Source: Candidatus Gastranaerophilales bacterium
Lineage (GTDB): Bacteria > Cyanobacteriota > Vampirovibrionia > Gastranaerophilales > Gastranaerophilaceae
Assembly (NCBI GenBank): GCA_944325085.1
Contig: CALUYT010000028.1
Coordinates: 43,331-107,330 of the forward strand
Length of the DNA: 64,000 bases
Direction of reading: 5' to 3'
How positions within the stretch are numbered: the stretch's first letter is position 1; each line of letters begins with the position of its first letter. Positions 10,822-46,973 of this stretch are shown here, piece after piece. The notes beneath the pieces were generated by a model, which saw only the letters and a program-made list of their open reading frames with translations, was not told the DNA's origin and ran no database searches. Made by a program: the position numbers and the translations under genes.

Positions 10822-12036
10822 TTAAGTTTCACTAAACCAAGTCATTGGATTATACCAAACGGAATCTTGTTTTTTAGGTGGCTCTTTTTGTTGAGCAATA
10901 TTTTGATTAGCTCCTGCAAAACTTTTTTGAAGTTTCTTACTTTTTATTTTTTGCTGTACTACTGCTAATTTTCTGTTTTGTTCAGAATTTTTATATTGAG
11001 TAACAAATTTTACAGAACCATCTTCCTGTTCTTTTAAAACAAGCTTATTACCTTTATCCTCAGGCAAAACATAAACAGTTGAACCAACTTTTATTCCATA
11101 CTTCATTTCCATTTCTTTTAAGTTATCAACAGGGATATTTACACATCCCATACTTTGTCTATTATCAGCCAAATTACCATTACCATAGAATTGATCTCTA
11201 ACTTTTGGGTTAGCAGTCCCATGCATAGCCTGAAAACCTCCGGCTAATTTCTTTTTACCACCACTACCTGGAGCATCCGGTCTCATTTCTACTTCAGGAT
11301 CAAAAGTTCCGTTTAAATCACCAAAATAATACAATCCACCAAATGTTCCTGATTTACCTGTTAAAGGAAATTCTCCAGGAACTGTTGTGTATACCCTTTT
11401 GGAAGGATCTTTTGCATAAGCAGTAGATAAATTATCTCCCTTATGTTGACCTAATAATACTTCATAAGAATCTAATGCCCTGCCTTCTTTATTATATACA
11501 GTAGCTCGGCAAGTTTTCTTGTCTATAATTACATAATTACCTTTTGCATGTTTCTTATTATATTCAATAATTCTTTGAGTATCAGTACCTAAACTGTTTA
11601 TTTTGATTATTTCAGCCTTCTTTGCTGCTTCTTTGGATTGGATATACTTCTTTGGTAAAAATGAAGTAACATCTCTTTGTGGTCTTGTTGTATCCTGAAT
11701 AGCAGTCATATCCTCAGGTTTTAAATGGACAGAAGAATCCGCAGCAACAACACTTCCCCTAGAACTTGCAGAAGCTTGGGATTTAGCAGAAGCTTGAGAC
11801 TTTGCTGGGGCGTTATCATTTTCATCAATCACAAATTTACTACCAATCTTGGAGAAAAATTTGTTATTAAAATCATTAACAGATTCACAATTATTCAATT
11901 TTGCCAAACGCTGCATTTCTTTTGTAATTTCAGCATTACTTGCTTTTTTACCTTTTGCTTTTAAATTATTTGCAGCAACTGACCAAGCACAATCACCTTG
12001 TCTAACTGTTCGCATATTAGGATTAATATCTGTCAT
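10822..12036 (-). CDS. LysM-like plus L,D-transpeptidase (YkuD) protein
   Basis: A 404-residue protein. ATG 12036 is preferred because GGAG lies just upstream; the in-frame ATG at 12048 overlaps that site. The N-terminus (MRTVRQGDCAWSVA, about residues 8-21) resembles a LysM peptidoglycan-binding domain, followed by a Ser/Ala/Gln linker with a repeated AKSQAS. The catalytic domain covers about 150-370: NYVIIDKKTCRATVYN, TTVPGEFP, the catalytic His in FQAMHGTANP, and SMGCVNIP with the nucleophile Cys. A basic tail follows. No signal peptide is visible, odd for a periplasmic enzyme, so export may use another route. Paralogue of the gene at 9970-10746. Confidence 0.8.
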   Translation of the reverse strand: MTDINPNMRTVRQGDCAWSVAANNLKAKGKKASNAEITKEMQRLAKLNNCESVNDFNNKFFSKIGSKFVIDENDNAPAKSQASAKSQASASSRGSVVAADSSVHLKPEDMTAIQDTTRPQRDVTSFLPKKYIQSKEAAKKAEIIKINSLGTDTQRIIEYNKKHAKGNYVIIDKKTCRATVYNKEGRALDSYEVLLGQHKGDNLSTAYAKDPSKRVYTTVPGEFPLTGKSGTFGGLYYFGDLNGTFDPEVEMRPDAPGSGGKKKLAGGFQAMHGTANPKVRDQFYGNGNLADNRQSMGCVNIPVDNLKEMEMKYGIKVGSTVYVLPEDKGNKLVLKEQEDGSVKFVTQYKNSEQNRKLAVVQQKIKSKKLQKSFAGANQNIAQQKEPPKKQDSVWYNPMTWFSET

Positions 12037-12136
12037 TTTTATCTCCATTTTTGTAACTTCACATGTTATTAAAGTATATATCTTTTATATAATTGCTATA
12101 TATTTATACATTGTTAACTTTTGTTACTTTGCATTT

Positions 12137-39703: not shown

Positions 39704-40756
39704 ATGTACTATCAAGGATTAATTAACAAATACAAAGAATATTTACCTGTTACAGACACTACTCCTATTGTCACATTAAATGAAGGTAATACACCTTTGA
39801 TTAAAGCTGAAAATTTAGCTAAAAAAATCGGAATTAATGCAGAAATTTATTTAAAATTCGAAGGTTGTAACCCAACGGGTAGTTTCAAAGACCGTGGCAT
39901 GACAATGGCAGTTACAAAAGCAAAAGAATCTGGTTCCGGCGCAATAATATGTGCATCAACAGGAAATACCTCAGCTTCAGCTGCTGCATATGGTGCTAAA
40001 GCTGGTTTAAAAACTTATGTTTTAATTCCTGATGGATACATAGCACTTGGGAAATTGTCTCAGGCAATGATGTATGGAGCAGAAATCATAGCAATTCAAG
40101 GTAATTTTGATAGAGCTTTGGAAGTTGTAAGAGAAATTGCTGAAAAATACCCTATAACTCTTGTAAATTCAGTAAATCCATATAGAATTGAAGGTCAAAA
40201 AACAGGTGCATTTGAAATTTGTGAAGCCTTAGGTCAAGCACCTGACTATCACTTTATACCTGTAGGAAATGCCGGAAATATTACAGCATACTGGAAAGGT
40301 TATAAAGAATGGTTTAATTTAGGCAAAATTCCAGCTTTACCTAAAATGATGGGATTTGAAGCTGAAGGCGCTGCGGCAATTGTTAAAGGCAAAAGAATTA
40401 TGAATCCTGAAACACTTGCAACTGCTATACGTATTGGTAACCCTGCAAGTTGGAAATTCGCTGAAGCAGCTCGTGATGAAAGTAATGGAATGATAAACTA
40501 TGTAACTGATGAAGAAATAGTTAAAGCATATAAGCTTATCGCATCTTGTGAAGGCGTATTAGCTGAACCGGCTTCAGCTGCATCTGTTGCAGGACTTATC
40601 AAAGTAAAAGACCAAGTTAAAGAAGGTTCTAAAATCGTTTGTATTCTAACAGGAAATGGTTTAAAAGATCCTGATAATGCTATTAAATATTCTAATGATG
40701 AAGTTAAGAAAACTACATCAGACTTAAATGATATCCTAAAAGCTATGAATATATAA
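39704..40756 (+). CDS. thrC: Threonine synthase
   Basis: A 350-residue PLP enzyme converting O-phosphohomoserine to threonine. The PLP lysine is in [11 protein letters not shown] (about 57-67). Other landmarks are [37 protein letters not shown] (phosphate-binding loop), [16 protein letters not shown] and [13 protein letters not shown]. It is the short cyanobacterial/Gram-positive type. GAGGG before the ATG. It shares a transcript with hom, and a perfect palindrome terminator follows. Confidence 0.97.
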
Positions 40757-40777
40757 AAAAATAACTACAAATAACTC

Positions 40778-40810
40778 AAAGGCAGAACTAATATTAGTTC
40801 TGCCTTTTTA
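40778..40810. terminator. Terminator between thrC and the graspetide precursor
   Basis: 30-nt perfect palindrome AAAGGCAGAACTAAT / ATTAGTTCTGCCTTT followed by TT; works on both strands for convergent genes. Confidence 0.9.
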
Positions 40811-40832
40811 TATAATCAACACTATACAAATT

Positions 40833-42062
40833 TTATAATAAACCTTTTTTAGGGTCTATAATATCTGAGCCACCTTCTTCACTTGTAGCTATTGTAGTTA
40901 ATCTGTGTTCTTTTATATACTCGTCAAATATTTTTTGTATTTCTTCTTTTGTTTTTCCATCAATCTTAATTGGATCTCCGCCTTCTTCGCCAACAGCTTG
41001 AGTAGTCAGCTTTTGGTCCTTTATATACTTATCAAATATTTCTTGTATTTCTTCTTTTATTTTAGGATCTATTTTAATTGGATCTCCGCCTTCTTCACCT
41101 ACGGCCATTGTGGTATAATCAGCACCACCTTCTTCGCCTAAAGCCATTGTAGTGTAATTAGAACCACCTTCTTCATTTAAAGCTTTGGTAGTAGCAGAAT
41201 CCACACCACCACCTTCTTCACCTACGGCCATTGTAGTGTAATTAGAACCACCTTCCTCGCCTATAGCTTTAGTAGTAGTTGCATCTGCACTGCCACCCTC
41301 TTCACCTATAGCTTGAGTAGTATATTTTCGTCCTTTTAAATATTTATCCAATAGCTCAGCAATTTCTTTTTTGGTTTTATCATCAATATTAATTGACTCT
41401 CCACCTTCTTCGCCTACAGCTAGTGTGGTATAATTAGAACCACCTTCTTCGTTTGTAGATTTAGTAGTAATATCTGCACTGCTACCATTTTCACCTAGTG
41501 CATAGGTTACTAATGAACCGCCTTCTTCGCCTGTGGATTTAGTAGTAATATCTGCGCTACTACCATTTTCACCTAGTGCATAGGTTACTAATGAACCGCC
41601 TTCTTCACCTGTAGATTTAGTAGTAATATCTGCGCTGCTACCATTTTCACCTAGTGCATAAGTTACTAATGTGCTACCTTCTTCGCCTATAGATTTGGAA
41701 ATTGCACCGGAACTTCCACCTTCCTCACCTACAGCCATGGTAGTCATTTTGCCGCCATTTTTTAAATATTCATCAATTATTTTATCAATATTTTTATTTT
41801 CTTTTTGTATATTTTTAGTCGCACCATCTTTATAATCTACAAAAGTATTATCATCAGGATTTTGTTCAACAAAAAAGCCTTTTACTTTTACTTTTAAGTC
41901 ATTTTCAGATGATTTCAGATTAGCTTCTTTATTTAAATTAGCAAGTGCCTCTTTTATTTCTTTACTTGTAGGTTTGTTATTTTTTTGAGATTTACCTTGA
42001 GCTTTAGTTTTTTTCAACTCTTTATCGTAATTATCTCCAGTACCATCTACTCGTAATGTCAT
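40833..42062 (-). CDS. Putative multi-core graspetide precursor (17 TTxxxxEE-type units)
   Basis: A 409-residue protein. ATG 42062 has AAGGAG 5 nt upstream; a longer start is rejected. Residues 1-90 are a polar Lys/Asn-rich leader. From 107 to 396 there are 13 exact TTxxxxEE octads: 107, 147, 173, 199, 212, 248, 263, 276, 291, 304, 317, 353 and 389. Most read TT-x-A-x-G-E-E-G-G. Four degenerate units are ISKSIGEE (121) and VTYALGEN (133, 159, 185). TTxxxxEE is the plesiocin graspetide core, where Thr and Glu side chains are joined by esters. A helix I-x-x-[IL]-[IFL]-D-[KE]-Y-[IL]-K recurs at 92, 234, 339 and 375, about 9 residues before a core. The divergent ATP-grasp gene supports this call. 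Alternative: an uncommon structural repeat protein. Confidence 0.72.
   Translation of the reverse strand: MTLRVDGTGDNYDKELKKTKAQGKSQKNNKPTSKEIKEALANLNKEANLKSSENDLKVKVKGFFVEQNPDDNTFVDYKDGATKNIQKENKNIDKIIDEYLKNGGKMTTMAVGEEGGSSGAISKSIGEEGSTLVTYALGENGSSADITTKSTGEEGGSLVTYALGENGSSADITTKSTGEEGGSLVTYALGENGSSADITTKSTNEEGGSNYTTLAVGEEGGESINIDDKTKKEIAELLDKYLKGRKYTTQAIGEEGGSADATTTKAIGEEGGSNYTTMAVGEEGGGVDSATTKALNEEGGSNYTTMALGEEGGADYTTMAVGEEGGDPIKIDPKIKEEIQEIFDKYIKDQKLTTQAVGEEGGDPIKIDGKTKEEIQKIFDEYIKEHRLTTIATSEEGGSDIIDPKKGLL
41445..41678 (-). repeat. Three tandem 78-bp repeats inside the precursor gene
   Basis: Copies begin at 41445, 41523 and 41601 (exact 78-bp spacing), near-identical at DNA level. A partial fourth copy starts at 41679. 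Each encodes a 26-residue unit with one VTYALGEN and one TTKST[GN]EE. Recent in-gene duplication. Confidence 0.9.
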
Positions 42063-42136
42063 AATTGCTCCTTTCAAAATTTTGCACACTTCGATTACTT
42101 CGGAAATATTTAGTACAAACTTTAATGAAATTTTAA

Positions 42137-42177
42137 AATTGTAACAATTGGCAATATTAGTGAAAATCCATTAAGAT
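42137..42177 (+). promoter_or_regulatory. Promoter and possible operator of the ATP-grasp gene
   Basis: TTGGCA (42148-42153), 18 nt and TAAGAT (42172-42177) precede AGGAGG and ATG 42194. A perfect 6-1-6 palindrome AATTGTAACAATT (42137-42149) overlaps the -35. A direct repeat ACTTCG-ATT-ACTTCG at 42088-42102 lies in the divergent precursor leader. The 131-bp spacer may co-regulate both genes. Confidence 0.4.
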
Positions 42178-42193
42178 AAATAAGGAGGTTCAA

Positions 42194-43060
42194 ATGATTA
42201 TTGTAATAGGAAGTAAAGAAGACTTTCACTCTCAATATGTATTTAATAAACTAACGACACAAAATATTAAAGTTAAATATCTTGATTCCAGAAAATTCCC
42301 AATTATTAATTGGTCTCCTGAAGGAGAACAAGATTATATTATTCTTGATGAAGAAAAAATATACATAAAAGATATCACAGGAATATACTGGAGATGGTAT
42401 TATGGAGTGACTTTTGGAACTTCTGATATTGTATATAGAGAAAAAACATCCGCGCTAGAAAGCTTTTTATGTTCAGTTGAACCTATTAGTTGGAATTCAT
42501 TACAAGCTGTAGAACTTCATAGAAAAAAAGGACTACAAAGCAAAATAATGCAAGATAATGGAATTAGAATTCCAAAAACCATTGTTACAAACGATGCAAA
42601 TGCTCTTGAAAAATTTTATATCGAAAATAATAAAAATATTATTTATAAACCGGTAAGAGGTGGCGCTTATACTCAAAAATTAAAAGATGAAGATTTGCTA
42701 AGAAAAGAATCTCTTATTAATTGCCCTTGTCAATTACAAGAATGCATTGACGGTATTGATATAAGAGTTTATGCCTTTGAAACCGGTGAAATATACGCAG
42801 GTGAAATTCTTGCTCAAAGTCTTGATTTTAGAGCAGATGAAAACGCCAAAATAAATAAACATAACTTGCCTAAAAAAATACAAAAAGATTGTCTAAAAAT
42901 TATGAAATTACTTGGTCTAAAATATTCCGGTATAGATATTAGATTAAGTAATAGTGGAGAATATGTATTTATAGAAGCAAATCCGGCACCAATGTTTGTT
43001 CATTTTGAAAATATGACAGGTTATCCAATCACAGACACTTTAATAAAAAATTTAATATAA
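42194..43060 (+). CDS. ATP-grasp peptide ligase (MvdD/PsnB-type graspetide cyclase)
   Basis: A 288-residue ATP-grasp enzyme, SD AAGGAGG. The pre-ATP-grasp part has ITGIYWRWYYG (61-71), like the IxxVWxRR motif of microviridin ligases. The ATP-binding lysine is in YKPVRGGA (K152). LQECIDGIDIRVYAFETGE (181-199) and SLDFRADEN (209-217) match the DIRV and DxR core of RimK/MvdD-type enzymes. Metal ligands are D248 (SGIDIR) and E261/N263 (EANPAP). It would activate Glu side chains with ATP and join them to Thr in the divergently encoded repeat precursor. Without that neighbour, a generic RimK-like ligase would be the alternative. Confidence 0.8.
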   Translation: MIIVIGSKEDFHSQYVFNKLTTQNIKVKYLDSRKFPIINWSPEGEQDYIILDEEKIYIKDITGIYWRWYYGVTFGTSDIVYREKTSALESFLCSVEPISWNSLQAVELHRKKGLQSKIMQDNGIRIPKTIVTNDANALEKFYIENNKNIIYKPVRGGAYTQKLKDEDLLRKESLINCPCQLQECIDGIDIRVYAFETGEIYAGEILAQSLDFRADENAKINKHNLPKKIQKDCLKIMKLLGLKYSGIDIRLSNSGEYVFIEANPAPMFVHFENMTGYPITDTLIKNLI

Positions 43061-43093
43061 AAAAAAGCTCCTAATAATATAGGAGCTTTTTTT
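43061..43093. terminator. Terminator between ATP-grasp and rpoC2
   Basis: AAAAAAGCTCCTA / TAGGAGCTTTTTTT stem of about 13 bp with a 6-nt AT loop; bidirectional, with T-runs. Confidence 0.9.
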
Positions 43094-43115
43094 ATATTGT
43101 ATATGATTAAATAAA

Positions 43116-46100
43116 CTAATTTTCATCATCTACATTAAAATCAGGAGCACCAAACATACCTTCAATTTCTTCTAAAATTGCAGATGGTTTTCTAGCCTGA
43201 TTTCTTTGTGCAACAGCGCGTTTTCTTTCTTCTCTGTCACGTTCTTCATCAGCGTTAATTAGGTGATGGAAGCCAGTACCTGCAGGGATTAAACGACCGA
43301 TAATTACGTTTTCTTTTAATCCTCTCAACATATCTTTCTTACCATCAACTGCTGCTTCTGTAAGAATTCTTGTTGTTTCTTGGAATGATGCTGCTGAAAT
43401 AAAGCTTTCTGTATTTAATGAAGCTTTTGTAATACCTAACAACATGTATTCACATTTTGCAGGTTGTTTACCAGCTTCTTCAGCAAGTTTATTTTCTTTT
43501 TCGAATGTTTGCATTTCAATCAATTCACCAGGCAACAAGTTTGTATCGCCAGCATCAATAACTTTTACTTTCTTAGTCATTTGACGAACGATAATTTCAA
43601 TATGCTTATCAGCAATTTCAACACCTTGAGAACGATATACACGTTGTACTTCGTCAACTAAGTATTGTTGAGCTGCCTCAGGACCGCATAATCTCATTAC
43701 ATCATGAGGATTCATAGGTCCAGATGTTAGAGGTTGACCTTTTGTAATTTTTTGTCCGTTTGAAACAATTACATTTGAATCAATCGCATATTTAATTTCT
43801 ACAGAAGATCCATCATTATCAACTAAGAACAATCTTGGTAAACCATCGTCATCAATTTCAATCTTAGCTGTACCATCATATTCTGCTAATATAGCACAAT
43901 CTTTTGGTTTTCTACCTTCTAACAACTCTTCTACTTTCGGAAGACCTTGAACGATATCGCCTGTTTTTTCTCTTTCAAATACTAATGTTGCAAGTAAATC
44001 ACCTCTTAAAACTAACGCTCCAGAGTCGATTTGTAACATTGTACCTGGGCTAATCAAATATGGACGACCATTTCTAATAGAAATTTCGCCTTTATTAACA
44101 GCAGTTACGATACCTGAAACAGGAGATGTTTCTCCACTTTCAGCTAAAACTTTATCAGTTTTAATAAATTCACCTTTCTTAACTACTGCTTTGCCTTTTA
44201 CAGCAACTTTTGTTTCTGAACTGTCAGAAATTAAAAGAAGTCTTCTTACATCTTCATCATCACCCTTGATAGAAGCTACAGCATCATGCATAGCTAATAC
44301 TTGAGTTTTTGCTACAGGAGTTTTTGGATCAATTGTTTCACCATCTTTTACCAATAACTCAGTTTGTAATGAAGATGATTTTGATGAACCTTCCATTTCA
44401 CGACGTACAATTAAGTTTTCTAATACAACAATTCTCAAAGCTCCTTGAGCATCAAGTTCTACCATACCTTTAAGGTGTGATAAATAGCCTTGCATTTGAA
44501 GAACTAAACTTGTTCTTGTAATTGTTGCACCATCAACATTTCTAACTCTTGCACCATCTTTGTATTGTAATTGAGTTACAGGAATAATATCAATTAATTC
44601 ATCTGTTGTATTAAATTTAATTGAAACATCTTTTGGTGTAACTTCTAATACTTGAACCGGTCTTACAAGAATTTGAACTGGTTGATTTGCAATTGAATCG
44701 TCATCTAATGATAAAGCTGAATCTAATTCTTCATCTAAATCATCTAAAGGTAAATTATCTACTGAAGAATCCATTATTGTAACGATAGAAGTTTCTTTAA
44801 CCTTGATACCTTCAGCAATAAGTGTACCTTTTTTAACTACTTCACCTTCATCAACTTTCAATTCTGAAATATTTGATAATGTATGAACTTCACCAGGTCT
44901 AATTGTAATTTCATGAATTACATCGTTGTATTCTTTGAATTCAACAACACCATCTATATGGCAATAAACGTCTTTTACAATTTCTGTACCTGCAGTAACT
45001 GCTGTTCCGTTTTCTACCATTTTTAATGTGCTATCTTTATTAATTTGATGAATTTCTTCTGGAATAAATACAACTTTACCAGGTTTTGTAATAATTTGAT
45101 TTTCATCAACTTCTACATCAACATATCTGATTTCACCAGAAGATGAAACAGCGCATTCATCATCGATAAGTTCGGCTATAATCATACCATTTTCAACTGT
45201 AGTATCTACAGGAGCTTTAACGATATATTTTTCGCCAGTTTTATCAACTGTCCAAAGTTGTTCTTTTTTAGTTTGTTCAAATGCTGCATTTTCTGGTTGT
45301 AATGAAGCTATAACAATTGTTAATTCTTTACCTTGAACAATTTTCTTAATCTTCTTACCATCAAATGTATCATCTTCAATAACTAAATCGCTGCCAACTC
45401 TTACTTCACCACCGTGTTCAGAAATTGTTAATGTTTCTGCTAATTTTTCACCGGCAGATATTTTTTGGCCATCTTTTACAAGAACTTTTGAACCACCAGG
45501 TAATGTATAAACGTCACCGCCTAAAACCCAAATAATACCTTGTTTATTTGTAGTTCTTGATACGTTACCTTGTCTATCTTTTTTCTCATCAGCTTTAAAG
45601 TCTTCAAATACAACTTCACCAGAGATATCAGTTGTAATATCCTTTGTAGCTTTTTCTGTTAAACGAGAGCTGTCACCTTGTGAAGTTGGTGCGTGTTCAG
45701 CCATTTTTTGACCTTTAGCAACTTCCATTCCGTCTGTAATAAATAATGTTGCACCAGCAGGAATATGATATTTAGTTGTTCTTTTTTCACCTTTAACTTC
45801 AATATCAGCTTCATACATTGAAACTTGAACGATATCACCGTGACGAGTTCTAAGTTCTCTTGCTTTAATTTTAGAAATTACTGTACCTGCTTCACGAGCA
45901 ATAATTTCTTTTTTAGCTTCTTTAACGCCAACAGCACCACCAGTGTGGAATGTTCTCATTGTTAACTGAGTACCAGGTTCACCGATTGACTGAGCTGCAA
46001 TAATACCAATTGCTTCTCCGATATCTACCAGTTTTTGAGTTGTCATTGCCCAACCGTAACATTTTTGGCATACACCATATTCTAAGCCACAAGTTAAACC

Positions 46101-46973
46101 TGAACGTACTCTTAATTCTTGTAAATCTAAACCAGAGATCTTCTTGATATCATCACGATCCATAGTTGTTCCGTTAGCAACTAATACATTACCTTCAGCA
46201 TCAACAATATCTTGAGCGACTGTTCTACCTAATAATCTATCAATTAATGGAACAATAACTACATCACCATCAGTGATTGGTTTCATATTAATATATTTTT
46301 CTGTATGACAATCATCAGCTCTGATTATTACATCTTGTGCTACGTCAACCAAACGTCTTGTCAAGTATCCTGAGTCAGCTGTTTTCAACGCTGTATCTAC
46401 AAGACCTTTACGAGCACCGTATGATGAAATAATGTATTCAGTTACTGACAAACCTTCTTTAAAGTTAGATTTAATAGGTAAGTCGATGATCTGACCTTGT
46501 GCGTCTGCCATCAAACCTCTCATACCAACTAACTGTGAAACTTGTGATAAATTACCACGAGCTCCAGAGAATGCCATCATATATACCGGGTTTAATTTGT
46601 CGAAGTTTTCAACTACTTGTTCTGTCAATTTTGCAGTTGTTTCAGACCAAGTATCGATAACTTTTGTATATCTTTCAACTTCTGTAATTTCACCTTTTAA
46701 GTATCTGTTTGTTGATTTTTCAATTTCTTTTTCTGCTGATTCCAATAACTCTTTTTTTACAGATGGAACTGACAAATCTGCAATTGAAATAGTTGTACCT
46801 GAAATAGTAGCGTATTTATAACCTAAGTTTTTCAAAGCATTAGCTAATGCTGCAGCTTTTGCTCCGCCGTATTCCAAATACATTTGACCTAAGAGTTTTT
46901 TCAACGAACCTTTGTCCATTTGTTTATTAATGAAATCAGGTGTTTTCTTAGTATTTGTATATGTTCTTTCCAT
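43116..46973 (-). CDS. rpoC2: RNA polymerase subunit beta-prime, C-terminal part (RpoC2)
   Basis: A 1285-residue subunit containing the trigger-loop half of beta-prime. The zinc site [13 protein letters not shown] (about 294-306) and the bridge/trigger region [20 protein letters not shown] (about 319-340) are clear. An insertion of about 600 residues (roughly 350-1000) follows in the trigger loop, made of repeated beta sandwich-barrel-hybrid-like segments, as in cyanobacterial rpoC2. The end has [17 protein letters not shown] and [29 protein letters not shown] motifs, the latter interrupted here for brevity. Lies 44 nt after rpoC1. A split beta-prime is a hallmark of Cyanobacteria and their non-photosynthetic sisters. 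Confidence 0.97.

Follow-up and report, generated by a model that had tools for sequence, protein, structure and literature searches.

Published work, cited here from excerpts of each paper, describes several graspetides whose precursors carry more than one core. Plesiocin (PsnA2/PsnB) has four units in tandem, each holding two ester links (PMC12291112) in a ring-within-ring topology (PMC13097080), and thuringinin has three units (PMC12291112). In the AMdnA/AMdnC system, one ligase modifies three microviridin cores per chain distributively (PMC5934393), while corallotide (CorA/CorB) is a repeat-bearing graspetide of about 22 kDa with a predicted helical N-terminal domain (PMC13097080). Graspetide precursors with several repeats had already been noted (PMC8939145). 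Here we describe a pair of genes in a 64,000-nucleotide stretch (the window) of contig CALUYT010000028.1 from Candidatus Gastranaerophilales bacterium, a member of a gut group that is the non-photosynthetic kin of cyanobacteria. The pair is very probably a graspetide locus, with a single predicted synthetase and a long multi-core precursor:

42194..43060, + strand: PsnB-like ATP-grasp graspetide synthetase, 288 aa (last codon before the stop ends at 43057)
40833..42062, - strand: multi-core precursor, 409 aa, 17 units including 13 exact TTxxxxEE (ATG at 42062, stop ends at 40833)
40869..41744, - strand: core array, residues 107-398, 17 units with short or helical spacers

A sequence-only reading of this DNA had drawn the same layout of a 409-residue precursor beside a divergent ATP-grasp ligase, with 13 exact octads in 17 units, four ligase motifs and no protease or transporter adjoining the pair, and each of these points held. 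The 13 exact TTxxxxEE octads compare with a mean of 0.056 and a maximum of 2 in 2000 residue shuffles; together with three VTYALGENG units and one ISKSIGEEG, they make up the 17 units, which begin between residues 107 and 389. The ligase contains YKP, DIRV, DxR (reading DFR) and EANP, and the neighbours of the pair in the window are thrC (39704-40756) and rpoC (43116-46973), both named from their translations. The ligase and precursor genes are separated by 131 bp, with a Shine-Dalgarno-like AGGAGG upstream of the ligase ATG and AAAGGAG upstream of the precursor ATG, both read from the sequence. The list of open reading frames (ORFs) opens the precursor at a GTG nine codons upstream of the ATG at 42062, giving 418 aa. 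A promoter search at the window was uninformative, with 12 found versus 13.3 in shuffles.

The tandem TTxxxxEE core expected of a plesiocin-type precursor is present here in 13 exact units, including TTLAVGEE, TTMAVGEE, TTQAIGEE and TTKAIGEE. The residue following TT is Lys in five of them, Met in four, Gln in two, and Leu and Ile in one each; by analogy with microviridin, we take this to be the protease-facing residue. PsnA2(14-38), the peptide solved with PsnB, ends in TTLAIGEE. It was found via the precursor of a relative at a weak E of 0.42, a match that we value for the identity of the molecule and not for its score, and the window precursor itself had no usable match in the PDB (best E 0.12). 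Unmodified, the precursor is a 43.3 kDa protein with a pI of 4.6, no Cys and no hydrophobic segment. Its gene carries two tandem repeats, of 78 bp (3.3 copies, 91% matches) and 84 bp (2.3 copies, 82%), which show duplication of units. Unit number probably varies among strains, because the database relative P0121, almost identical at both termini, has 12 units (9 exact octads in 317 residues) versus 17 here; collapse of repeats during assembly in either record is a possible source of the difference.

PsnB is the best match of the ligase in both sequence and fold. A profile of its relatives scored 193 against PsnB in the PDB, followed by MdnC (127), AMdnB (119), CdnC (109), MdnB (107), PruB (67), ArgX (44) and RimK (38), and the NCBIfam scores of the ligase were 111 bits for MvdC, 104 for MvdD and 97 for SAV_5884 versus 59 for the RimK family. 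In a tree, E. coli RimK and GshB were separated from the other 35 rows at 95/95, with a long-branch warning, and MdnC, MdnB and AMdnB formed a separate microviridin-ligase branch (AMdnC was not among the rows). On the NCBIfam scores, the PDB profile and this split, a RimK- or glutathione-type identity was rejected. At E ≤ 1, the genome has a single ligase match, in line with the one ligase of plesiocin-type systems, and neither a second precursor nor a second ligase was found in it at that threshold.

The pair also recurs in relatives. Of the family's 383 genomes, the window's own counted, 20 have the ligase at E ≤ 1e-15, at 22 places; 20 of these places were examined with longer flanks, and the remaining two are that of the window and G092:C4, where the precursor was read separately. 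Taking as precursor the nearest ORF with one exact octad, two T.AYPSDD or one [TS]....YEEGG, we located one within 155 bp of the ligase at 17 of the 20 loci (16 divergent, 1 convergent). Exact octads occur at 13 loci, with 1 to 13 per precursor, the counts for G120, G042 and G092 being lower bounds because G120 is partly masked and the other two run off contig ends. Three same-family relatives have precursors of just 58-72 aa with a single core, and at four places in genus g33, three of them within the 20-locus set, the core reads T..AYPSDD. At the DNA level, the pattern TTxAx-G-EEGG had matches in 20 of 386 genomes of the phylum, and its reversed control had 0. All 9 matching genomes of the family carry the ligase; two ligase-bearing genomes of this sample, G033 and G064, have no match, consistent with their PSDD cores. 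Among the 11 matches outside the family, that in G496 lies in a 51-residue ORF with no ligase in the 18 kb examined and looks like chance. The sequence-only reading had expected the ligase to group with graspetide synthetases, apart from RimK and GshB, and the pair to be shared by relatives; both expectations were borne out, and the kinship to PsnB together with the recurrence of the pair points to a plesiocin-type graspetide.

Several of these relatives depart from the window in their precursors. The g33 loci (L017-L019 and L021) have T[TK]xAYPSDDAxG-like units with a helix-like stretch between them and ligases 42-43% identical to that of the window, which may represent an Asp-Asp version of the same layout. 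At L006 and L007, precursors of 384-390 residues contain mixed, partly decayed cores, Cys and His/Trp-rich stretches resembling HHHWGHHHWGG, next to a 77% identical ligase. The precursor at L014 (G185) has approximately 250 residues and two cores with GTPGPGVHLDEGQEGKKIQ repeats between them. At L020 and L022, ligases of 32% identity are followed by a conserved gene of 361-376 residues, and the next ORF at L020 is the start of a repeat protein (GVKTSEKI) that may be a candidate for another precursor type. A second repeat ORF in G092 (L120, G092:C20) lies at a contig end, with TTKAIGEEGG units, repeated QQFIEMIQNYQS and no ligase within 9.3 kb.

Losses of ring residues across the related precursors carry indirect information on ring topology. 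Units were selected on positions 4, 6 and 9 alone, so that any residue was allowed at the four ring positions, and Thr was pooled with Ser and Glu with Asp; this gave 188 distinct 9-mers out of 149 precursor-like entries, some of them redundant. All four ring residues are kept in 126 units. T1 and E8 are lost jointly in 24, T1 alone in 10 and E8 alone in 3, and crossed losses (T1 with E7, or T2 with E8) number 0 among the 188 (Fisher p for T1 versus E8 loss 9e-18, inflated by related sequences). The other 25 units, of which 14 have none of the four ring residues, 5 have only E8 and six show states that occur once each (one of them a T2-with-E7 loss), mostly look like chance hits, given how loose the rule is. 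The direction of loss fits nested T1-E8 and T2-E7 rings with a dispensable outer ring, which agrees with the topology published for plesiocin (PMC13097080), and the three VT....EN units of the window are therefore predicted to have one ring each.

Ahead of and between the cores, the precursor has a head, a predicted leader motif and candidate helices:

41919..42062, - strand: N-terminal head, residues 1-48, derived from LysM but lacking the GDTLW part (hhalign profile comparison)
41832..41846, - strand: predicted leader recognition motif TFVDY (residues 73-77), with a similar motif in 13 of 17 family precursors
41760..41789, - strand: predicted helix upstream of the first core (residues 92-101; low-confidence model)
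41481..41666, - strand: three VTYALGENG units (residues 133, 159 and 185), one inner ring predicted each, lying in the 78-bp tandem repeat
41334..41381, - strand: predicted helical spacer (residues 228-243; low-confidence model)
41016..41066, - strand: predicted helical spacer (residues 333-349; low-confidence model)
40902..40949, - strand: predicted helical spacer (residues 372-387 of a modelled helix 372-392; low-confidence model)

The AlphaFold model of the precursor (mean pLDDT 36) gives no more than a hint of the helical spacers. By profile comparison, the head is derived from LysM. Window-type heads (12 sequences, Neff 2.4) matched LysM-type heads (6 sequences, Neff 1.5) at an hhalign probability of 96.6%, with an E of 5.7e-10 for the single comparison and no more than 0.8% in five column-scrambled controls. 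LysM domains were recognized at the start of the related precursors P0141 (24.3 bits) and P0158 (22.2 bits; Pfam cut-off 20.9), with P0144, P0149, P0152 and P0165 narrowly below the cut-off at 20.3 to 20.7. The Pfam matches of the window precursor do not include LysM (PF01476), and its LysM descent is seen at the profile level only. Elsewhere in the window, the first 70 residues of a YkuD L,D-transpeptidase (10822-12048, - strand) resemble the LysM heads of related precursors, and this protein too has no obvious signal peptide; LysM-headed proteins of this lineage, including the transpeptidase, may share an unusual export route.

Ahead of the first core, 13 of 17 family precursors, which are 58 to 549 residues long, carry [TSP]F[VI]x[YF] at residue 7-83, versus a chance expectation of 0.39 of 26 in shuffled pre-core regions. 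The graspetide leader motif was defined by Makarova et al. as the Phhx(1,2)h or PFFARFL kind (PMC8939145, in excerpt). One family precursor reads PFVKF, agreeing with this rule, whereas TFVDY of the window has no Pro.

We lean towards a two-gene plesiocin-type cassette whose product is the whole long chain, a many-headed serine-protease inhibitor. The PsnB-like ligase would recognize the leader motif in the neighbouring precursor, use ATP to activate Glu carboxylates, and join T2 to E7 in an inner ring and T1 to E8 in an outer ring. At two esters for every full unit (26 in all) and one for each of the four partial units, the chain would lose approximately 30 waters (about -540 Da), with the three VT....EN units limited to the inner ring. 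The ligase probably works distributively, in the way published for PsnB and AMdnC, and the result would be a long chain of hairpins acting whole. Since the residue after TT varies along the chain, different heads would suit different proteases.

The fate of the chain was approached through its possible processing. A search for C39 peptidases (PF03412), the enzymes that usually cut at double glycines, found no match at E ≤ 1 in the 96% complete draft genome; of 14 control genomes, 8 were positive in the same search. Cutting at the double glycine in the EEGG that follows each core is not supported, and in the absence of such a peptidase match the chain is likely uncut at GG. Leader-attached microviridin still inhibits elastase (PMC11672978, in excerpt), which means that this cousin is active without being cut; together, the two observations favor a product that keeps its full length over a cut one. 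The genome has 19 matches to ABC-transporter stretches at E ≤ 0.001, none linked to the pair.

A number of observations weigh against this account. The ligase scores far under the curated MvdC, MvdD and SAV_5884 cut-offs (for example, 111 versus 425) and is therefore a divergent branch; the tree does not resolve the placement of PsnB, and the long branches of GshB, RimK, G390, CdnC and PsnB make its deep splits unsure. No recognized precursor was found at three of the 20 loci (G290, G314 and the second place in G251). The leader pattern was picked after inspection of the sequences, and four of the 17 family precursors (G081, G112, G033 and G064) are without it. In the topology set, 10 units retain E8 after loss of T1, and 19 of the 24 paired losses come from the N-terminal cluster to which the window precursor belongs, any such loss being present in 4 of 21 clusters, so that independent paired-loss events are fewer than 24. 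The peptidase survey was confined to C39, in a draft genome. In a scan made without a signal-peptide program, the precursor showed neither a membrane segment nor anything resembling a signal peptide, and it has no RR pair, so that the account offers no route for its export. Finally, Lys or Arg stands two residues ahead of TT at four helix-core junctions (GGKMTT, GRKYTT, DQKLTT and EHRLTT), and trypsin-like cutting would therefore be allowed.

This last point suits a related explanation that we consider possible but on the doubtful side, in which the ligase and ester hairpins are the same and the long chain does no more than carry its cores. Like a polyprotein, it would be cleaved within the spacers, by a general protease or one of the host, to free peptides of one or a few cores. 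The three one-core relatives described above indicate that a product may consist of one core alone, but the genome offers no C39 match, no neighbour family shared across genera was recognized as a protease (few flanking genes are annotated), and the junction Lys or Arg is not conserved at all junctions of relatives, as in the G156 precursor. A decaying cassette, with repeats expanded without function, could account for the units that have lost ring residues, the precursor dN/dS of 0.36 versus G258, and the sporadic occurrence in 20 of 383 family genomes. It is very unlikely, as both reading frames are open, ring partners tend to vanish together, and ring residues are kept by varied synonymous codons (T2: ACT 7, ACA 5, ACC 4 and one TCC for Ser; E7: GAA 15, GAG 2). 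The ligase dN/dS versus G258 is 0.08; dS was undefined in 5 of 7 ligase comparisons. Still more improbable is a RimK-like glutamate ligase beside an ordinary structural repeat protein without esters. The Pfam RimK model PF08443 does match the ligase over its cut-off, at 28.9 bits, and some relatives bear RimK-type in their source names; the family scores and the tree set the ligase apart from RimK.

The whole-chain inhibitor that we favor could also be part of something broader. More tentatively, and less likely than not, graspetide chemistry may serve here to staple a whole protein and not to make a small peptide, producing a cell-envelope polymer with a LysM-type head and 17 hairpins that are locked by esters and mixed in specificity. 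It would belong to a wider class of ester-stapled proteins, with plesiocin-type cores on LysM, Calx-beta, tyrosinase and twin-arginine-exported proteins, in which T1 and E8 are shed as a pair and bicyclic heads turn monocyclic.

The pair sits between thrC and rpoC in G000, G197, G258 and G045. Terminator-like palindromes lie on either side of it:

40778..40807, - strand: terminator-like palindrome between the 3' ends of thrC and the precursor gene (called on the - strand only)
43060..43093, + strand: terminator-like palindrome between the 3' ends of the ligase gene and rpoC (called on the + strand only)

At 30 rpoC loci examined, out of 41 matches in 39 of the 46 genomes of the genus, the ligase is present at 4, thrC without the ligase at 8, and neither within the flank at 18. 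Two of the eight thrC-rpoC loci without the ligase (G294 and G208) have a gap of about 110 bp, and the other six hold different ORFs. In this genus, the gap between these genes (40757-43115 in the window) resembles a hot spot for cargo genes, framed by two terminators. In G156 and G120, the pair occupies another site, and its flanks differ in other genera. Clustering of the 20 loci gave eight families besides ligase and precursor that occur in more than one genus, the nearest, and the only one close to the pair in two genera (g1 and g41), being a metalloenzyme-superfamily gene in G120 and four g41 loci, housekeeping-like by Pfam. Other annotated neighbours are chorismate synthase and NadA (g41) and a PEPCK-like gene (G120). 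An outer-membrane efflux protein gene comes after the G092 ligase, approximately 320 bp away, and has no counterpart among the few annotated flanking genes, in which no dedicated protease or transporter recurs.

The sequence-only reading had also called the 17-unit length exceptional; it proved less so than supposed, and long arrays are not unique to this locus. In a protein-database search that admitted 0.55-1.75 times the query length (7996 candidates scored), and which because of these limits favors long proteins, the best 120 of 227 precursor-like proteins include 113 with at least 5 exact octads and 38 with at least 10, to a maximum of 19. Source names among the matches listed include Okeania, Trichodesmium and planctomycetes. 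P0151, P0179 and P0231 have 10-11 exact octads after a twin-arginine-like start (RRQALAA, RRDFLRR); P0179 and P0231 carry planctomycete source names, one of which refers to a twin-arginine signal. Such starts would fit modification in the cytoplasm followed by folded export. In P0167, P0174 and P0228, core arrays are fused to part of a tyrosinase domain (P0167, whose 19 exact octads are the highest among the matches listed) and to PrcB_C domains.

By title and abstract, we found no open-literature paper on graspetides of Melainabacteria or Gastranaerophilales, the 2017, 2020 and 2021 plesiocin/PsnB papers lying outside the coverage, and melainabacteri* has 0 mentions in the survey PMC8939145, as available in excerpt. 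The kind of system is already known; the LysM-derived head, the spacer helices, the one-to-17-unit series in one family and the paired-loss pattern were not found described in the literature covered. If our account is true, one 288-residue enzyme installs approximately 30 esters per chain and reaches cores that lie as far as about 310 residues beyond the leader motif. In engineered graspetides with just two or three cores, modification was incomplete (PMC12291112, PMC13003496; both in excerpt). Within a single bacterial family, precursors range from one core to many, a natural experiment in how a ligase deals with growing distance and core number. Further consequences would be a protease inhibitor with multiple heads in a gut group and whole proteins stapled by esters, both testable with two genes.

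Compared with the systems introduced at the outset, the locus is closest to plesiocin, with which it shares a single PsnB-like ligase and a TTxAxGEE core near-identical to TTLAIGEE of PsnA2. It differs from plesiocin's four units in having 17, along with helical spacers, a LysM-derived head, TFVDY and no C39 match in the genome. The TTLALGEEGG precursors of other classes of the phylum, whose hosts are presumably photosynthetic cyanobacteria, share the core, and a PsnB-like ligase is found in 9 of 12 such stretches (one of the 12 from the window's family). Among the loci with core and ligase outside the family, eight of nine precursors start with HPFD or HPFE, unlike TFVDY of the window, and seven of nine are 75-106 aa long, with 1-3 exact cores and GG ahead of the first core. 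At one other-class locus (L110:7913-10581), a PsnB-like ligase lies 8 bp from a precursor of 586 residues that combines HPFE close to the N-terminus with Calx-beta domains (118 bits) and 5 exact TTxxxxEE cores, placing graspetide cores on a large multi-domain protein. Like the window, AMdnA/AMdnC pairs one ligase with several cores per chain, but the core motif of AMdnA differs. Corallotide resembles the window in its large size and repeats, and differs in its KxxxD lactams, hydroxylation at five sites and further cluster enzymes.

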